Source: Candidatus Bathyarchaeum sp. | GTDB taxonomy: Archaea; Thermoproteota; Bathyarchaeia; Bathyarchaeales; Bathyarchaeaceae | Direction: 5' to 3' | NCBI GenBank assembly: GCA_026014565.1 | Contig: JAOZIB010000006.1 | Span: forward strand, 1 to 38,963 | DNA: 38,963 nucleotides | In this document: positions 17,041 to 37,867 of the stretch, piece by piece | How positions within the stretch are numbered: the first letter of the stretch is position 1 | How the letters are laid out: each line of letters begins with the position of its first letter | The notes under the pieces: model-generated | What the model saw: the letters and a program-made list of their open reading frames with translations, nothing else | What the model was told of the DNA's origin: nothing | Databases searched by the model: none | Position numbers and translations under genes: made by a program

Positions 17041-18159
17041 ATGGTAAAAAAAATATATGTTATAGCATCAGTTGCAATTGTGGCTGTTGTTTTAATTGCC
17101 GCAATTGCAGTTTTATTTAATCCGGACACTTCTGAACCCACAGTAGAGGAACCTGAAACCCGCGAAATCGTAGACATGGCGGGTCGCACCGTGACTGTTC
17201 CCATTGAAGTCAATCGCGTTGTTGCAATATGTTCTGGTTGCTTACGGATTCTCACTTACATGGACGCCACTGACCTAATATGCGCAGTTGAAGAAACAGA
17301 AACAGACCCTACTGGACGACCATACGCTATGGCCCACCCAGAATACGCTTCATTACCCATAATTGGGCCAGCCCATGGTGGAGATAACGAACTAATTGCA
17401 GCCCAAAATCCAGATATAATATTTGCCTCAGACGCAAGAAATCCAGACTTTGACGCGATACAGGAGCAAACAGGAATACCTGTTGTTTGTATCGCTTATG
17501 GTGGATTGGACACAGAAGAAGAAACTCAAAAGTTCTATGATGGACTTACTCTCATTGGTAAAATACTGCATAAAGAAGACAGAGCTACTGAAGTCATCAA
17601 CTATTTTGAAGGCATAATCGATGACCTTGACAGCCGAACCCGTGACGTACCTGATTCAGAAAAATTGTCCGTTTATGTTGGTGGGCTTTCATCAGCTGGG
17701 AAACATGGAATAACTTCAACAAATGCATACTATGCACCATTTACTCTAACGAATTCACTCAACGTGGTTACTGACGAGATGGCTGGTGGATCAACTAACG
17801 TTGTGAGTATAGATGCCGAAGTCATCCCTGACCTTAATCCTGACATCATATTCATTGACTACAGCGGTCTAAGCCTTTGTCAAGAAGATGTGGCAAACTA
17901 TGCAGATGTTTATGGATCGTTAGATACAATACAAAACAACATGACGTACGGTGTAATGGGCTACAACTGGTATCATCTAAACTTTGAGGTGGTGCTAACC
18001 GACGCATACTATATTGGAACTGTTCTTTATCCAGACCAGTTTTCAGACATAGACCCCGTTGAAAAAGCTAATGAAATCTACACTTTCATGGTTGGCGCAG
18101 ATGTATACGATGAAATGGTAGAAATCTATGGTCCATTCGGCACCCTAAACCTACGCTGA
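17041..18159 (+). CDS. FecB/BtuF-type ABC substrate-binding protein
   Basis: Residues about 5-26 are a hydrophobic signal-anchor (VIASVAIVAVVLIAAIAVLF) with no lipobox cysteine, so the protein is probably tethered to the outer face of the membrane by that helix. The rest is a class III periplasmic-binding fold: REIVDMAGRTVTVP (about 41-54), NRVVAICSGCLRILTYMDATDLI, NPDIIFASD (about 121-129), and a second lobe with LNPDIIFIDYSG. This family binds siderophore-iron, haem, cobalamin or other metal chelates; the cargo is not readable from sequence. GAGGAAAAC immediately precedes the ATG. It belongs with the permease and ATPase genes downstream. Confidence 0.88.
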   Translation: MVKKIYVIASVAIVAVVLIAAIAVLFNPDTSEPTVEEPETREIVDMAGRTVTVPIEVNRVVAICSGCLRILTYMDATDLICAVEETETDPTGRPYAMAHPEYASLPIIGPAHGGDNELIAAQNPDIIFASDARNPDFDAIQEQTGIPVVCIAYGGLDTEEETQKFYDGLTLIGKILHKEDRATEVINYFEGIIDDLDSRTRDVPDSEKLSVYVGGLSSAGKHGITSTNAYYAPFTLTNSLNVVTDEMAGGSTNVVSIDAEVIPDLNPDIIFIDYSGLSLCQEDVANYADVYGSLDTIQNNMTYGVMGYNWYHLNFEVVLTDAYYIGTVLYPDQFSDIDPVEKANEIYTFMVGADVYDEMVEIYGPFGTLNLR

Positions 18160-18188
18160 GGGAAACAGTAGATGCAAAAAACTATTCT

Positions 18189-18208
18189 CTGGGCAACAAC
18201 GTGCCCAG
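18189..18208 (+). terminator. Intra-operon hairpin between binding protein and methyltransferase
   Basis: CTGGGCA and TGCCCAG form a perfect 7-bp GC-rich stem with a 6-nt loop, followed 7 nt later by TTTTT. It lies in the 101-nt gap between two cluster genes, so it may be a partial terminator or an mRNA stabiliser that raises the dose of the binding protein over the membrane parts. Confidence 0.6.
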
Positions 18209-18260
18209 CCCCATATTTTTGTTAAATCTTGAAAATTTACCCTAAAAGGAGCACATACTA

Positions 18261-19310
18261 ATGAAAGAACTAAGTAATTTGTTAAATCCTTCATTTCCTA
18301 GATCACAGGCGTTTTCTACCCTGATAATGAAATCTTCAGAAGGACTAAAACGCTATTATTTGATAATGACTGCATGGGAAGATAAACTGTTTGAATACAC
18401 AGTTACTGCCAAGACCGCTCAAGAAATAGCCCAGCAGTTAGGATATCACGAGGCTATGTCTCAGATGTTTTGTGATGCCCTGACAGAAGTTGGTCTGTTG
18501 CTAAAAGAGGAGGACAAATACAGTAATTCTCCCCTGACACGCAACTACTTAACTAAATCCTCTTCACGATACATGAGACACACTCTTGAAAACCTGAAAA
18601 AAACTGCCAAACGATGGAGCCAACTGCCAACATTACTTAGGCAAGGACCAATCATCAAAGAAAAATCAGAAGTGTTTGGTCACGATTGGATAACCCGTAT
18701 CGCTGAAGGGGCAGAAGCAGGGTCTGTTTTCAATACAATTAAAGTTGTAACAAATTATCTGAACATCCAACGTTGGAAAAGACTTCTTGACATCGGTGGA
18801 GGGCACGGCTTGTACTCTATTGCTTTTGCTGCCCTTAATCCCGAACTTGAAGCGTTTGTTTTTGATCGTCCACAAATAACTCCAATAACATGCAAATACA
18901 TTGACGAATATGACGCACAAAGAGTTCACGTGATTTCTGGAGACTTTTATACTGACAATATCGGTGAAGGTTATGATGCCATATTTTCATCCTTTAATCA
19001 AAGTTGTAGTGACCCCGAACTTATTCCAAAACTTGTAAATGCATTACAACCGAACGGAGATTTAGTTTTGCGCAGATTCAAAGATAATTCTAGAGAAAGT
19101 GCTTTGAAAGTTTTGGATTGGAATTTTGTCCAGTTTGAAGGAAAGAAAATCGGCAGCAAGCCTCATTCTAGCAGCAAAATCATTGAGCGAAATGAATATG
19201 TTAAGAATCTAGAATCGTCTGGCTTAATCGTTCTTGATATTGTTCCGGTGGATGAAATGTCTGAGATAGTTTTTGCACGCAAGCCTTCGACGTTCAGGAG
19301 CACCCATTAA
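18261..19310 (+). CDS. SAM-dependent O-methyltransferase-like protein with N-terminal dimerisation domain
   Basis: The 349-residue protein has an N-terminal winged-helix dimerisation domain (about residues 25-105: LFEYTVTAKTAQEIAQQLG, MFCDALTEVGLLLKE) and a class I methyltransferase domain. The SAM-binding motif DIGGGHG is at 177-183, followed by VFDRPQI (acidic motif II region) and YDAIFSSFNQSC. This architecture is that of small-molecule O-methyltransferases (hydroxyneurosporene, ASMT-like). The substrate is unknown. AAAAGGAG is placed 8-10 nt before the ATG. Its stop overlaps the permease start by one nucleotide, so it is tightly tied to the transporter and may act on the imported compound or on a chelator. 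Confidence 0.85.
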   Translation: MKELSNLLNPSFPRSQAFSTLIMKSSEGLKRYYLIMTAWEDKLFEYTVTAKTAQEIAQQLGYHEAMSQMFCDALTEVGLLLKEEDKYSNSPLTRNYLTKSSSRYMRHTLENLKKTAKRWSQLPTLLRQGPIIKEKSEVFGHDWITRIAEGAEAGSVFNTIKVVTNYLNIQRWKRLLDIGGGHGLYSIAFAALNPELEAFVFDRPQITPITCKYIDEYDAQRVHVISGDFYTDNIGEGYDAIFSSFNQSCSDPELIPKLVNALQPNGDLVLRRFKDNSRESALKVLDWNFVQFEGKKIGSKPHSSSKIIERNEYVKNLESSGLIVLDIVPVDEMSEIVFARKPSTFRSTH

Positions 19311-20377
19311 TGGCCGATCATCAAACTGACAAAAATAAACCAGATGACACATCTGATTACACCAAATATATTGGGAAAAAAATATCCTTCATTATTTTGA
19401 CTGCTGTTGCTTTGGTTGCAGTCATTTTGATTGCAACCTCAATTGGTTCGGCTAACCTCTCCATCTCTGAAGTACTTGAACAGATAATCAACCAAAGCGG
19501 AATCGCGTGGACCATCCGTTTTCCGCGGGTGCTGGTAGGTGTGGTTGCTGGTGCTATGCTGGCAGTTACCGGCGCAGTCATGCAGTGTATCCTCAAAAAC
19601 CCTTTAAGTGAACCATATACCCTTGGTTTAAGTCAAGCTGCAGCTTTTGGCGCTGCATTTTCTATCATGTTTCTTGGCGGAGGCAGCATGTACAGCAACT
19701 CCAAGGATGCCGTGATAATTAGTAACCAGTACACTGTAACTATCTGTGCATTTTGTTTCTGTTTGATATCCACAATTGTTATTCTTGCCCTCACTAGCTT
19801 AACCCGAGTTTCTCCAGAATCTATAGTCCTGTCAGGCGTAGTAATGGGCTCCATTTTTGGGGCTGCACGAACGGGATTACAATACTTTGCAAATGAAATT
19901 CAGCTCTCCTCTATGGTTTATTGGACATTTGGGGACCTTAGTCGCATAACATGGGACAATCTGATTCTGCTTGTCTGCATTTGTGTACCTGTCCTCATAT
20001 ACTTCATTTACAACCGCTGGAACTATAACGCAATCGACGCGGGAGTAGATACCGCGAGCAGTCTGGGCGTAAACGTGAATCGACATGTCCGGATAGGCAT
20101 GGTGCTTTGTTCACTTATTGCCGCGTTGATTGTCTCTTTGATGGGGGTAATCGGGTTTGTGGGCTTGTTGGCTCCCCATATTGTCCGCTGGATAATTGGC
20201 TCCGATCACCGGTTTGTGATTCCTGCATCTGCCCTATTGGGAGCATTAATCCTGTTGGGGTCTGATACTGTAGCACGCACAATAATTTCCCCATTGGTGC
20301 TTCCTGTTGGTGTAATAACTTCGTTCCTTGGTGGACCCTTGTTTCTTATTATATTGATTCGGAGGTATAGAAAATGA
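19310..20377 (+). CDS. FecCD/BtuC-type ABC transporter permease
   Basis: The 355-residue membrane protein has a polar, Asp/Lys-rich N-terminal 25 residues and then about nine to ten hydrophobic helices. Family signatures are IRFPRVLVGVVAGAMLAVTG (about 64-83), MQCILKNPLSEPYTLG, GVIGFVGLLAPHIVRWI (about 281-297, the coupling region to the ATPase) and LPVGVITSFLGGPLFLIIL near the C-terminus. It would work as a homodimer with the ATPase encoded next and the binding protein encoded upstream. It overlaps the ATPase gene by four nucleotides (ATGA). The cargo is probably a metal chelate or corrinoid. Confidence 0.93.
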   Translation: MADHQTDKNKPDDTSDYTKYIGKKISFIILTAVALVAVILIATSIGSANLSISEVLEQIINQSGIAWTIRFPRVLVGVVAGAMLAVTGAVMQCILKNPLSEPYTLGLSQAAAFGAAFSIMFLGGGSMYSNSKDAVIISNQYTVTICAFCFCLISTIVILALTSLTRVSPESIVLSGVVMGSIFGAARTGLQYFANEIQLSSMVYWTFGDLSRITWDNLILLVCICVPVLIYFIYNRWNYNAIDAGVDTASSLGVNVNRHVRIGMVLCSLIAALIVSLMGVIGFVGLLAPHIVRWIIGSDHRFVIPASALLGALILLGSDTVARTIISPLVLPVGVITSFLGGPLFLIILIRRYRK

Positions 20378-21126
20378 AACTAAAAGTGAGAGATGTGGAA
20401 TTTGCATACAAAAGTAACCCAGTTCTAGAAAACATACAAATGACTGTAAACGCAAATGAAGTACTAGCAATTTTAGGACCTAACGGAGTGGGAAAAACTA
20501 CACTTCTGAAATGTCTTAATGGTCTGTTGAAGACTCGTAATGGAACAATTTTGGTTGACGGCGAAGAACTAAAGAAAATGAACCGCGTCGAGGTTGCTAA
20601 ACGGATCAGTTATGTACCTCAAAGGGCCGATGTGTCACAAGTTACGGTTTTTGACTCAGTATTACTTGGCAGAAAACCTCACATTACTTGGGATGTTTCA
20701 AAAAAAGACCTCGCTTTAACTAAGGATATGATTGACCGTCTTGGTTTAAGTGAACTGTCATTAAAGTATATCACTGAAATAAGCGGCGGTGAACTGCAGA
20801 AAGTTCAAATTGCACGTGCTTTGGTACAGGAACCCAAAGTTTTGTTGCTGGACGAACCTACCAGCAGTCTTGATTTGTGCAACCAACACCAAATAATGTC
20901 TACTTTGGTTGACGTTGTCAAAAACAACGACATAAGCGCAATCATGACCCTGCACGACATCAACCTCGCGTTGCGTTACGCAGACAAATTCATTATGCTA
21001 AAAGACGGAACAATTTTTGCAGGAGGAGACCACACAGTAATAACCCCTCAAAACATAGAGGCAGTCTATAATCTGCCTGTTAACGTGGCAAACTTCATGG
21101 GGCGACCGATAATCGTTCCCTTGTAG
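20374..21126 (+). CDS. FecE/BtuD-type ABC transporter ATP-binding protein
   Basis: All ABC motifs are visible in 250 residues: Walker A GPNGVGKT (35-42), Q-loop in YVPQRADVSQ (about 80-89), signature SGGELQKVQIARAL (137-150), Walker B LLLDEP (157-162), D-loop SSLD and H-loop His in MTLHDINLALR. The LGRKPHITW segment after the Q-loop is typical of the iron-siderophore/cobalamin subfamily. It energises the FecCD-type permease. It is the last gene of the cluster; a long AT-rich gap with the proteasome promoter follows. Confidence 0.95.
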   Translation: MKLKVRDVEFAYKSNPVLENIQMTVNANEVLAILGPNGVGKTTLLKCLNGLLKTRNGTILVDGEELKKMNRVEVAKRISYVPQRADVSQVTVFDSVLLGRKPHITWDVSKKDLALTKDMIDRLGLSELSLKYITEISGGELQKVQIARALVQEPKVLLLDEPTSSLDLCNQHQIMSTLVDVVKNNDISAIMTLHDINLALRYADKFIMLKDGTIFAGGDHTVITPQNIEAVYNLPVNVANFMGRPIIVPL

Positions 21127-21271
21127 TTATTTTTTATGCAATTTTTGGGGCTTTTAACTAAAGTAATACCGTGGAAATCCTGACAGTTAATTTATTTTTT
21201 CCAAAGGAAAATCAATTAAGTTTAATAGCCCCTTTTAGGTCAATACTGCAAGATAACGGAGAGAACAAAGT

Positions 21272-21886
21272 TTGAGTGACCAAGCCCAAGGACAGTACTA
21301 CATGCCTGGAGCCACCACAGTAGGCGTAGTTTTTGATGGCGGAGTGGTTTTAGCCGCAGAAAAACGAGTGACCTATGGTTCCATGATAATGAGCAAAACC
21401 GGAAAAAAGGTTTTCAAAATCACTGAACAAGTCGGAGCAGCATGTGCAGGATTGGTTTCGGACATGCAAAATTTGACACGAGAAATCTCTGCCCAAGCAA
21501 CACTGTTTACCCTTAACACAAAACGCCTCATGAGTGTAAAAGCTGCATCCAAAGTAACAGCAAACGTGTTGTTCAACAGGAAAATGTCCCCCTTATACAC
21601 CCAAACAATCGTGGGAGGAATGGACGGCGAAGTTGCAGAAATATATGTTTTGGATGTTTTGGGTTCCCTTTTGCCTGACGATTACGCAGCAGTAGGCACA
21701 GGAGCCACCATGGCAACAGGTGTTCTGGAACAAGGTTACAAAGAAAAAATGACCCAAGAAGAAGCAAAAGCCCTAGCCCTTAAGGCGATAAAATCTGCAG
21801 TACGCAGAGATTCCATGAGCGGCAACGGCGTAGACGTGATGATAATCACAAAAGATGGGATACAAGAAGAAACCACCAACTTTTAA
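21272..21886 (+). CDS. psmB: Proteasome beta subunit, apparently lacking catalytic Thr1
   Basis: The 204-residue protein has the beta-subunit fold: a short propeptide (MSDQAQGQYYMPG), the strand ATTVGVVFDGGVVLAAEKRV, then SKTGKKVFKI, AGLVSDMQNL, VGTGATMATGVLEQGY and RRDSMSGNGVDVMII. Aligned without gaps to the Thermoplasma beta subunit, Glu17 is Glu30 and Lys33 is Lys46, which puts Ala14 at position 1, where active subunits carry the nucleophilic Thr. It resembles the inactive or conditionally active beta-1 type of Crenarchaeota, which needs a second, active beta subunit (family knowledge). It starts at TTG 21272 with GGAGAG upstream. Confidence 0.92.
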   Translation: MSDQAQGQYYMPGATTVGVVFDGGVVLAAEKRVTYGSMIMSKTGKKVFKITEQVGAACAGLVSDMQNLTREISAQATLFTLNTKRLMSVKAASKVTANVLFNRKMSPLYTQTIVGGMDGEVAEIYVLDVLGSLLPDDYAAVGTGATMATGVLEQGYKEKMTQEEAKALALKAIKSAVRRDSMSGNGVDVMIITKDGIQEETTNF

Positions 21887-21998: not shown

Positions 21999-22616
21999 TT
22001 GACGTTTCAGTTGACCCTTGATGAGGGAAAAATTCTAGTAAACCTTGCACGGCAAACAGTTACAATTTACTTACAGACAGGAAAAATCCTGAAAGCTCCT
22101 ATAGATGTTTCCCCAAAACTAATGGAACCTTGTGGAGTTTTTGTCACCTTAAATTCTGTTAACAATGGAACAAAGCGCCTTAGGGGCTGTATTGGTTTGC
22201 CTTATCCGACCTCGCCTCTTGTTAATGCAGTTATTGAAGCAGCAGTTAGTGCGGCAACTCAAGATCCACGTTTTCCACCAGTTGTGGTTCAAGAACTAGA
22301 CAACATAGTTTTTGAAGTCAGCGTGTTGACACCTCCAGAGCTTGTTAAAGTTGAAAAACCAACTGATTACGCGTCTAAAATCAAGGTTGGAAGGGACGGC
22401 TTGATTCTTGAGCAGGGTTATCATAAGGGCTTGTTGTTGCCTCAGGTTCCGGTTGAGTGGAAATGGGACCCTGAAGAATTTTTGTGTCAAACTGCAGTGA
22501 AAGCAGGATTATCTCCTGATGCTTGGCTACTAAAGGGCACCAAAATTTACCGTTTTGAAGGGATAATTTTTGAAGAAGTTACACCCACAGGCGATGTGAA
22601 ACAAAAGGAAATTTGA
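21999..22616 (+). CDS. AMMECR1-family protein
   Basis: The 205-residue protein carries the family hallmark LRGCIG (about residues 60-65), preceded by PCGVFVTLN and followed by a long alpha/beta domain with [22 protein letters not shown] and [21 protein letters not shown]. Two lobes with an invariant-residue cleft suggest an enzyme, but the biochemical activity of the family is not established. Length and motifs match archaeal members. It begins at TTG 21999. Its stop region overlaps a possible early start of the following glycosyltransferase, so the two are probably co-transcribed. Confidence 0.9.
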
Positions 22617-35695: not shown

Positions 35696-37867
35696 CTATG
35701 CTACAGGAGTTGTAGGCTTCTTTAGTTGTCGAACATTCTTCATGAAATTACGATACCAATTCTCCATATTAGGCATAATAGATGGTCCAGATTTTTCAAG
35801 GGCTTTCCTGAAATCATCAAAAGTAACAACTTTTGCATTTATGTCTCTACGCAAAGCATTAAGTCCAGCTTCTCGACAAAGAGCTTCAATGTCTGCACCG
35901 GAATACTTCTTTGTCATTATAGACAACTGAGCCAAATCCACATCATCTGCCAAAGGCATCTTACTGGTATAGATTTTTAAAATTTCCAACCGACTTTCTT
36001 TTTCGGGTTCAGGAACATAAATCAAACGGTCAAACCGTCCAGGACGAAGAATTGCAGGGTCAACAATGTCTGGCCTGTTAGTAGCTGCAATGATAACTAC
36101 ATCTTCCAATGAGACCAAACCGTCCATCTCGGTTAGTAGTTGACTAATAACTCGTTCAGTTACTCCGCTATCAGTGTAACCCATTCCTCGACCAGGAACC
36201 AAAGAATCAAACTCATCAAAGAATATCACAGTTGGCGAAGCCATTCTAGCCTTTCTGAAAACTTCACGAATTGCTTTTTCAGATTCTCCGACCCATTTGG
36301 AGAATACTTCTGGACCTTTTACGGTTATGAAATTAGCTTCACTTTCGGTTGCAACTGCCCGAGCAAGCAAAGTTTTCCCACAGCCCGGGGGACCATAAAG
36401 CATGATGCCTTTAGGGGGACGAATACCAATCCGAGTGAAAACTTCAGGGTTTTTCAGTGGCCATTCAACTGCTTCTATGAGTTCTTGTTTAAGTTCACCT
36501 AAACCTCCAATTTGGGACCAGTGAACTTCTGGGATTTCAATGTGAACCTCACGCATAGCAGTTGGAGTGATTTCACGGAAAGCATTCAAAAAGTCCTCCA
36601 TACGAACTTCCATTTTCTCCAAAACACTCGGAGGAATGCGTTCTTCATCTAAATTGATTTCAGGTAAATACCTACGCAGAGCTTTCATAGCGGTTTCTCG
36701 GCTCAAGGCAGAAAGGTCAGCACCAGTGTAACCGTGAGACATTTTTGCAAGTTTGTCCAAATCCACATCGTCTGTGAGGGGCATACCTCGGGTGTGAATT
36801 TGTGTCACTTCGTAGCGTCCTTTTTGATCAGGTACACCAATTTCGATTTCCCTATCAAAGCGTCCGGGACGGCGTAACGCAGGGTCAAGGGCTTCGGGTC
36901 GGTTAGTTGCACCGATAACAATCAGGTGGCCTCGACCAGAAAGCCCATCCATCAAAGCCAAAAGTTGAGCAACAACTCGTCGTTCGACTTCTCCAGTTAC
37001 TTCTTCACGTTTTGGAGCAATAGCATCAAGCTCGTCAACAAAAATTATGCTGGGAGCATTTTTTTGTGCTTGCTGGAACATTTCGCGAAGTCGAGCTTCA
37101 GATTCCCCATAGAATTTGCTCATGATTTCGGGTCCGTTTATTGAGTAAAAGTTTGCTTCAGACTCGTTTGCTACTGCACGAGCTAGAAGCGTTTTTCCAC
37201 ATCCAGGAGGACCATGTAACAGTACACCTTTTGGTGGTTCTATTCCAAGGCGTTGGAACAATTCGGGATGCCTTAGGGGTAGTTCAACCATTTCTCGGAT
37301 TCTTTGGATTTCTTCGTGTAATCCTCCGATGTCTTCGTAGGTTGTTCGGGGCAAGCCTTCGCTTTCGGGTGCGGGCTCGGCCATGATTTGGACGTTTGTG
37401 CTGTTATTTATTCTTACAATTCCGTGGGGACGGGATTTTGTTACACGAAAAGGTATGGCGTGTCCTAGCATCATTACTAGGGTGGTGTCACCTTCTACGA
37501 AGGTTCTTTCCATGAGCCGGTTTTTTACAAAGTTTGTAAAGTCTTCATCCACGTTTAATTTCATGTCGATTGGAGCCAAAACTAGACTCGTGGCATTTGT
37601 TACCTTGGCTTGGCGAATTACAACTACTTCGTGTATTGCCACTCCAGCATTTTTGCGGGTGAATCCGTCAATTCGGATTATGTCTCTGTTTTGGTCTTCG
37701 GAGTATGCGGGCCAGGCTATGGCTGCGGTGTTTCGTTTTCCAATAATTTCTATTACGTCGCCCGCTGAGATACCCAGTTTTTGCATTGCTTGTTGATCAA
37801 CTCGGGCGATTCCTCGATAAACGTCTCGCTGTTTTGCATCTTCTACTCTTAGTTGCATTTCGCTCAC
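35696..37867 (-). CDS. cdc48: CDC48/VAT-type double AAA+ ATPase
   Basis: A hexameric unfoldase related to VCP/p97 that feeds the proteasome and extracts proteins. Residues about 1-170 are the N domain (double-psi barrel plus four-stranded barrel). D1: Walker A GPPGCGKT 219-226, Walker B IIFVDELD about 274-281, arginine finger in [10 protein letters not shown]2: Walker A 492-499, Walker [21 protein letters not shown]. The 723-residue length is normal. The C-terminus (LKKPTTPVA) has no clear HbYX proteasome-docking motif. ATG 37867. The aEF-1beta gene is 81 nt upstream on the same strand. Confidence 0.97.

Follow-up and report, generated by a model that had tools for sequence, protein, structure and literature searches.

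The proteasome beta gene of the window

The DNA analysed here, referred to as the window, is a stretch of 38,963 nucleotides from Candidatus Bathyarchaeum sp. It carries a psmB-type gene (21272..21886, +) for a 20S proteasome beta subunit of 204 amino acids that is predicted to be non-nucleophilic; the assignment was made with PF00227, TIGR03634, the solved chain 6z46_H and a fold match. The reading frame starts with TTG, ends with TAA and reads MSDQAQGQYYMPGATTVGVVFDGGVVLAAEKRVTYGSMIMSKTGKKVFKI.... A likely ribosome-binding site, GGAGAG (21258..21263, +), was recognized in the sequence 8 nt upstream of the TTG. The N-termini of related proteins align at this start (SDQAQG...), and one relative has ATG there. 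An internal ATG at 21302, which would give MPG before ATTVG, was considered as the start and is disfavoured, since the relatives align with the TTG and some of them have no internal Met.

The protein matched PF00227 with E = 6.3e-52 and 176 bits (cut-off 22.4). Against TIGR03634, the archaeal beta model, it scored 218.9 bits over positions 1-185, slightly below the curated cut-off of 224, as compared with 239.8 for the Thr1 paralogue in the same genome. Structural modelling, as recommended in the first-pass annotation, was performed with AlphaFold2 and yielded a model with a pLDDT of 86.9 and a pTM of 0.86. This model matched 20S beta chains at 1.6-1.7 Å, consistent with an Ntn-hydrolase beta fold.

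One alpha and two beta genes in the genome

The Bathyarchaeum genome assembly (1.81 Mb, 43 contigs, 95.7% complete) contains exactly three PF00227 genes: one alpha gene on contig C27, the beta gene of the window and one Thr1 beta gene on contig C1. The latter (G000:C1:118863-119402) reads MQENIEKLALKGTTTVGVV, with the motif GTTTVG and Thr at position 1, and a pattern search found GTTT[VI]G once in the genome. The first-pass annotation had argued that the window gene implies a separate active beta subunit and had proposed a search for a second psmB with GTTTVG; precisely one further beta gene of this kind is present. A structural beta subunit of the type represented by Saci0662 of Sulfolobus acidocaldarius is expected to share its genome with a separate Thr1 beta and an alpha subunit, and both are encoded here. 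The two beta genes sit on different contigs, a point against the mixed core in so far as their co-expression is only presumed.

Position 1 and the active site

Proteasome genes were taken from about 180 Thermoproteota genomes, sampled at every rank from genus to phylum. Beta subunits were assigned to the window type or the other type by whole-length similarity to the two beta subunits of the Bathyarchaeum genome, and not by residue 1. Since the sampling followed availability, and since the rows lack independence, the counts given below describe conservation and not probability.

The window protein begins with a propeptide-like extension of 13 residues, MSDQAQGQYYMPG (21272..21310, +), followed directly by ATTVG.... 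Catalytic beta subunits have Thr at position 1 of the mature protein; the window protein has Ala there (residue 14, codon GCC, 21311..21313, +), followed by Thr2 (residue 15, 21314..21316, +). Glu17 (21359..21361, +) and Lys33 (residue 46, 21407..21409, +) were located by alignment, and Arg19, Ser129, Asp166 and Ser169 are also kept. Residue 14 and Lys46 are 32 residues apart in an ungapped alignment, with TTVG immediately after Ala14. The distance from Thr12 to Lys44 in the other beta subunit of the genome is also 32, with no insertion or deletion between the two proteins. Since the same spacing was found in 171/174 window-type and 58/60 other-type beta subunits, the register of position 1 is not in doubt. 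The placement of Ala14 (GCC) at position 1 with TTVG next, and the fixing of Glu17 and Lys33 by ungapped alignment, both made in the first-pass annotation, are thus confirmed.

Position 1 was Ala in 164 of the 174 window-type beta subunits and otherwise Gly or Ser, three gapped rows reading PG-T being counted as Gly; Thr was found in none of the 174. All 60 beta subunits of the other type had Thr. One protein (L249) with a score between the two types reads PG-T, and the tree described below places it among the window-type proteins. The alanine codons were GCC (56), GCA (50), GCG (32) and GCT (26), and the use of all four indicates selection for the residue. Lys33 and Arg19 were invariant in the 174 window-type proteins and Asp166 and Ser169 nearly so, residues 17, 19, 33, 129, 166 and 169 being kept almost without exception. 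Gly(-1) was present in 163/174. A full-length window-type gene was present in 58 of the 61 genomes sampled for the class, and in one of the remaining three the gene was split over two contigs. The nearest named relatives (n = 7), all from Candidatus Bathyarchaeum or Bathyarchaeota metagenome-assembled genomes, were 85-69% identical to the window protein along its full length.

Some variants were also observed. Two inert beta subunits from the Sulfolobus side, L245 and L247 (genomes G130 and G123), combine Ser1 with Val17, which suggests a possible nucleophile in a broken triad. A pair of window-type beta genes was found in each of three genomes of the class (L154/L174 in G092, L171/L172 in G093 and L166/L167 in G094); the L174 copy has an in-frame TAG.

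Relationship to Saci0662 and to other inert beta subunits

The best solved match to the window protein by sequence was 6z46_H (2.8e-48). Saci0662 in entry 6Z46, entitled as the S. acidocaldarius 20S proteasome (Saci0613/Saci0662), was also the second-best fold match to the predicted model, with an rmsd of 1.7 Å and 42-44% identity. The crystallized beta chain starts MTAIGIK, with Met immediately before Thr2. The full-length Saci0662-type gene of a close relative starts MEELPATAIGIK, with Ala at position 1. Saci0662 thus resembles the window protein in having Ala1, as read from the full-length gene of the relative, and in coming from a genome that also encodes a single alpha subunit and, as its second beta, a Thr1 subunit. 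The two differ at position 3, which is Thr in the window protein and Ala in Saci0662, and in the N-terminal extension, which has 13 residues in the former and five in the latter.

In S. acidocaldarius, alpha and truncated Saci0662 form a stable barrel of 28 subunits that is inactive, Saci0909 alone does not pair stably with alpha, and addition of Saci0909 at a lower ratio confers activity on the alpha/Saci0662 core (PMC4569737). The authors of that study regarded Saci0662 as indispensable for contact with the alpha rings and termed it 'seemingly catalytically inert' (PMC4569737). Equivalent threonines were described in both Sulfolobus beta subunits (PMC4569737); in our alignment that of Saci0662 falls on position 2, a placement that would account for the lack of activity. 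The biochemistry comes from Saci0662 only.

The relationship was also examined in a tree of 82 rows, obtained by a quick search after removal of the first seven mature positions. A single branch (SH-aLRT 84) separated all 50 window-type beta subunits, the Sulfolobus type among them, from the Thr1 beta subunits and two euryarchaeal beta subunits. The window protein therefore groups with the Saci0662 type, and not with the Thr1 beta subunits, outside the positions that define the trait. The split, for which support is moderate and not decisive, fits a single loss of the nucleophile early in the history of Thermoproteota.

In the eukaryotic 20S particle, beta3, beta4, beta6 and beta7 are without a working Thr1 and share the ring with active subunits. 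The window protein is like these non-catalytic subunits in combining the beta fold with the lack of a working Thr1. Eukaryotic rings, however, hold seven distinct subunits in fixed places, whereas here a single inert type would be combined with a single active one. A further difference is that Lys33 and the other catalytic residues are retained in the archaeal inert type. A parallel at the active site is provided by the T1A forms of yeast beta1, beta2 and beta5 (PMC4792962), in which, as in the window protein, Thr1 is replaced by Ala and the rest of the site is intact; the yeast replacement was engineered, whereas Ala1 of the window protein is natural and conserved. In yeast, T1A is routinely used to inactivate a subunit, which then retains remnants of its propeptide (PMC4792962). 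By analogy with these mutants, the extension of the window protein would not be removed autocatalytically without Thr1.

A probable structural role

The first-pass annotation had interpreted the window protein as a structural, non-nucleophilic beta subunit, and this interpretation is supported, the best solved relative being the inert, barrel-building subunit of Sulfolobus. The window gene very probably encodes a catalytically dead 20S beta subunit, whose role beside the active beta subunit is almost certainly a structural one. Most likely it provides the principal contacts to the alpha ring and the bulk of the beta ring, with the Thr1 beta subunit as the cutter. The protein would have the fold of an ordinary Ntn-hydrolase beta subunit. 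With Ala in place of Thr1, it would have no nucleophile, would not remove its own extension and would cut no peptide bonds; the 13-residue extension would be kept or trimmed in trans. The second beta subunit, with GTTTVG and Thr1, would be inserted into the ring as its only cutting subunit. For Bathyarchaeum, the shared ring and the division of labour within it are inferred from the Sulfolobus orthologue.

Alternatively, the two beta subunits might form separate homomeric particles, the inert one serving, for example, as a chaperone-like chamber or a storage barrel. An inert particle is physically possible, since alpha and the inert beta of S. acidocaldarius alone form a stable barrel (PMC4569737), but the active beta subunit of that organism forms no stable complex with alpha alone and enters the ring together with the inert one (PMC4569737). 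The Bathyarchaeum genome, moreover, has a single alpha gene. We consider separate particles improbable.

If Ala14 were lost through a shifted cut, Thr15 (Thr2) might serve as an active N-terminal nucleophile; this alternative, raised in the first-pass annotation, appears less probable still and was rejected. A threonine is available one residue on, in the window protein and in all 174 relatives. Thr2 is, however, equally invariant in the 60 active beta subunits, which do not use it as the nucleophile, and its conservation is thus structural. If one residue were lost, moreover, the strand would be out of register with Lys33. For 6Z46, the Sulfolobus orthologue was produced as M-TAIG, and the particle of alpha and truncated Saci0662 was inactive (PMC4569737). 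If the construct assayed was the one crystallized, an identity that we infer, the Sulfolobus particle is a direct test of this proposal, and the inactivity of a subunit starting M-Thr2 argues against it. Finally, a sequencing error, a pseudogene or a recent one-codon mutation, for which nothing was found, can be dismissed, because the frame is open over its full length and Ala1, conserved from genus to phylum, recurs in 164 relatives with four codons, which is not the mark of chance, a base-call error or a fresh mutation.

One might not expect the near-complete conservation of the other active-site residues in a subunit with a purely structural role, and this is a point against such a role in its strict form. 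A mixed ring with an obligate dead partner may conceivably have arisen once, before Thermoproteota diversified, and been kept since, with the empty site still functional; we regard this proposal as speculative and rather unlikely. Under it, Lys33, Arg19, Ser129, Asp166 and Ser169 would be kept in the dead subunit because the empty site is still useful; it might, for example, shape the site of its neighbour, bind peptide products or direct the trans-processing of N-termini.

The structural subunit proposed here is of a kind already known, the Saci0662 type, to which Bathyarchaeum adds a member. A literature search for an inert proteasome beta subunit from Bathyarchaeia found no paper, and we know of no experiment on the window protein or on any bathyarchaeal proteasome. 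A partly inactive, heteromeric beta ring, often deemed eukaryotic, is probably the rule in Thermoproteota, the uncultured Bathyarchaeia included, and such rings are probably no peculiarity of Sulfolobus. Caution is also indicated in annotation, as not every archaeal psmB should be called 'proteasome endopeptidase'. The window-type subunits offer a natural T1A series in which to ask why a dead site keeps its other catalytic residues.

ATPase candidates and neighbouring genes

No PAN homologue (TIGR01242) above the curated cut-off was found in this genome or in 25 relatives. The best matches to TIGR01242 were tandem-AAA proteins of the Cdc48 type and one single-AAA protein. Cdc48-type genes of this genome lie in the window (35696-37867, -) and at G000:C24:8171-9703; their products end in ...PTTPVA and ...PQNPPI, and the C-terminal HbYX docking motif is absent from both.

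Directly downstream of the inert beta gene is a gene (21999-22616, +) that we take to be AMMECR1-like. This order is kept in 42 of 73 loci (L034-L090), all 42 being from the same order or from named Bathyarchaeum relatives; the AMMECR1-like gene was not near the beta gene in the loci sampled from other classes. In this genome the beta gene is preceded by genes (17041-21126, +) that resemble those of an iron/corrinoid-type ABC transporter, with a substrate-binding protein, a permease and an ATPase, and by one resembling a methyltransferase gene. Among the other sampled loci, only L036 had permease and ATPase genes close to the beta gene.
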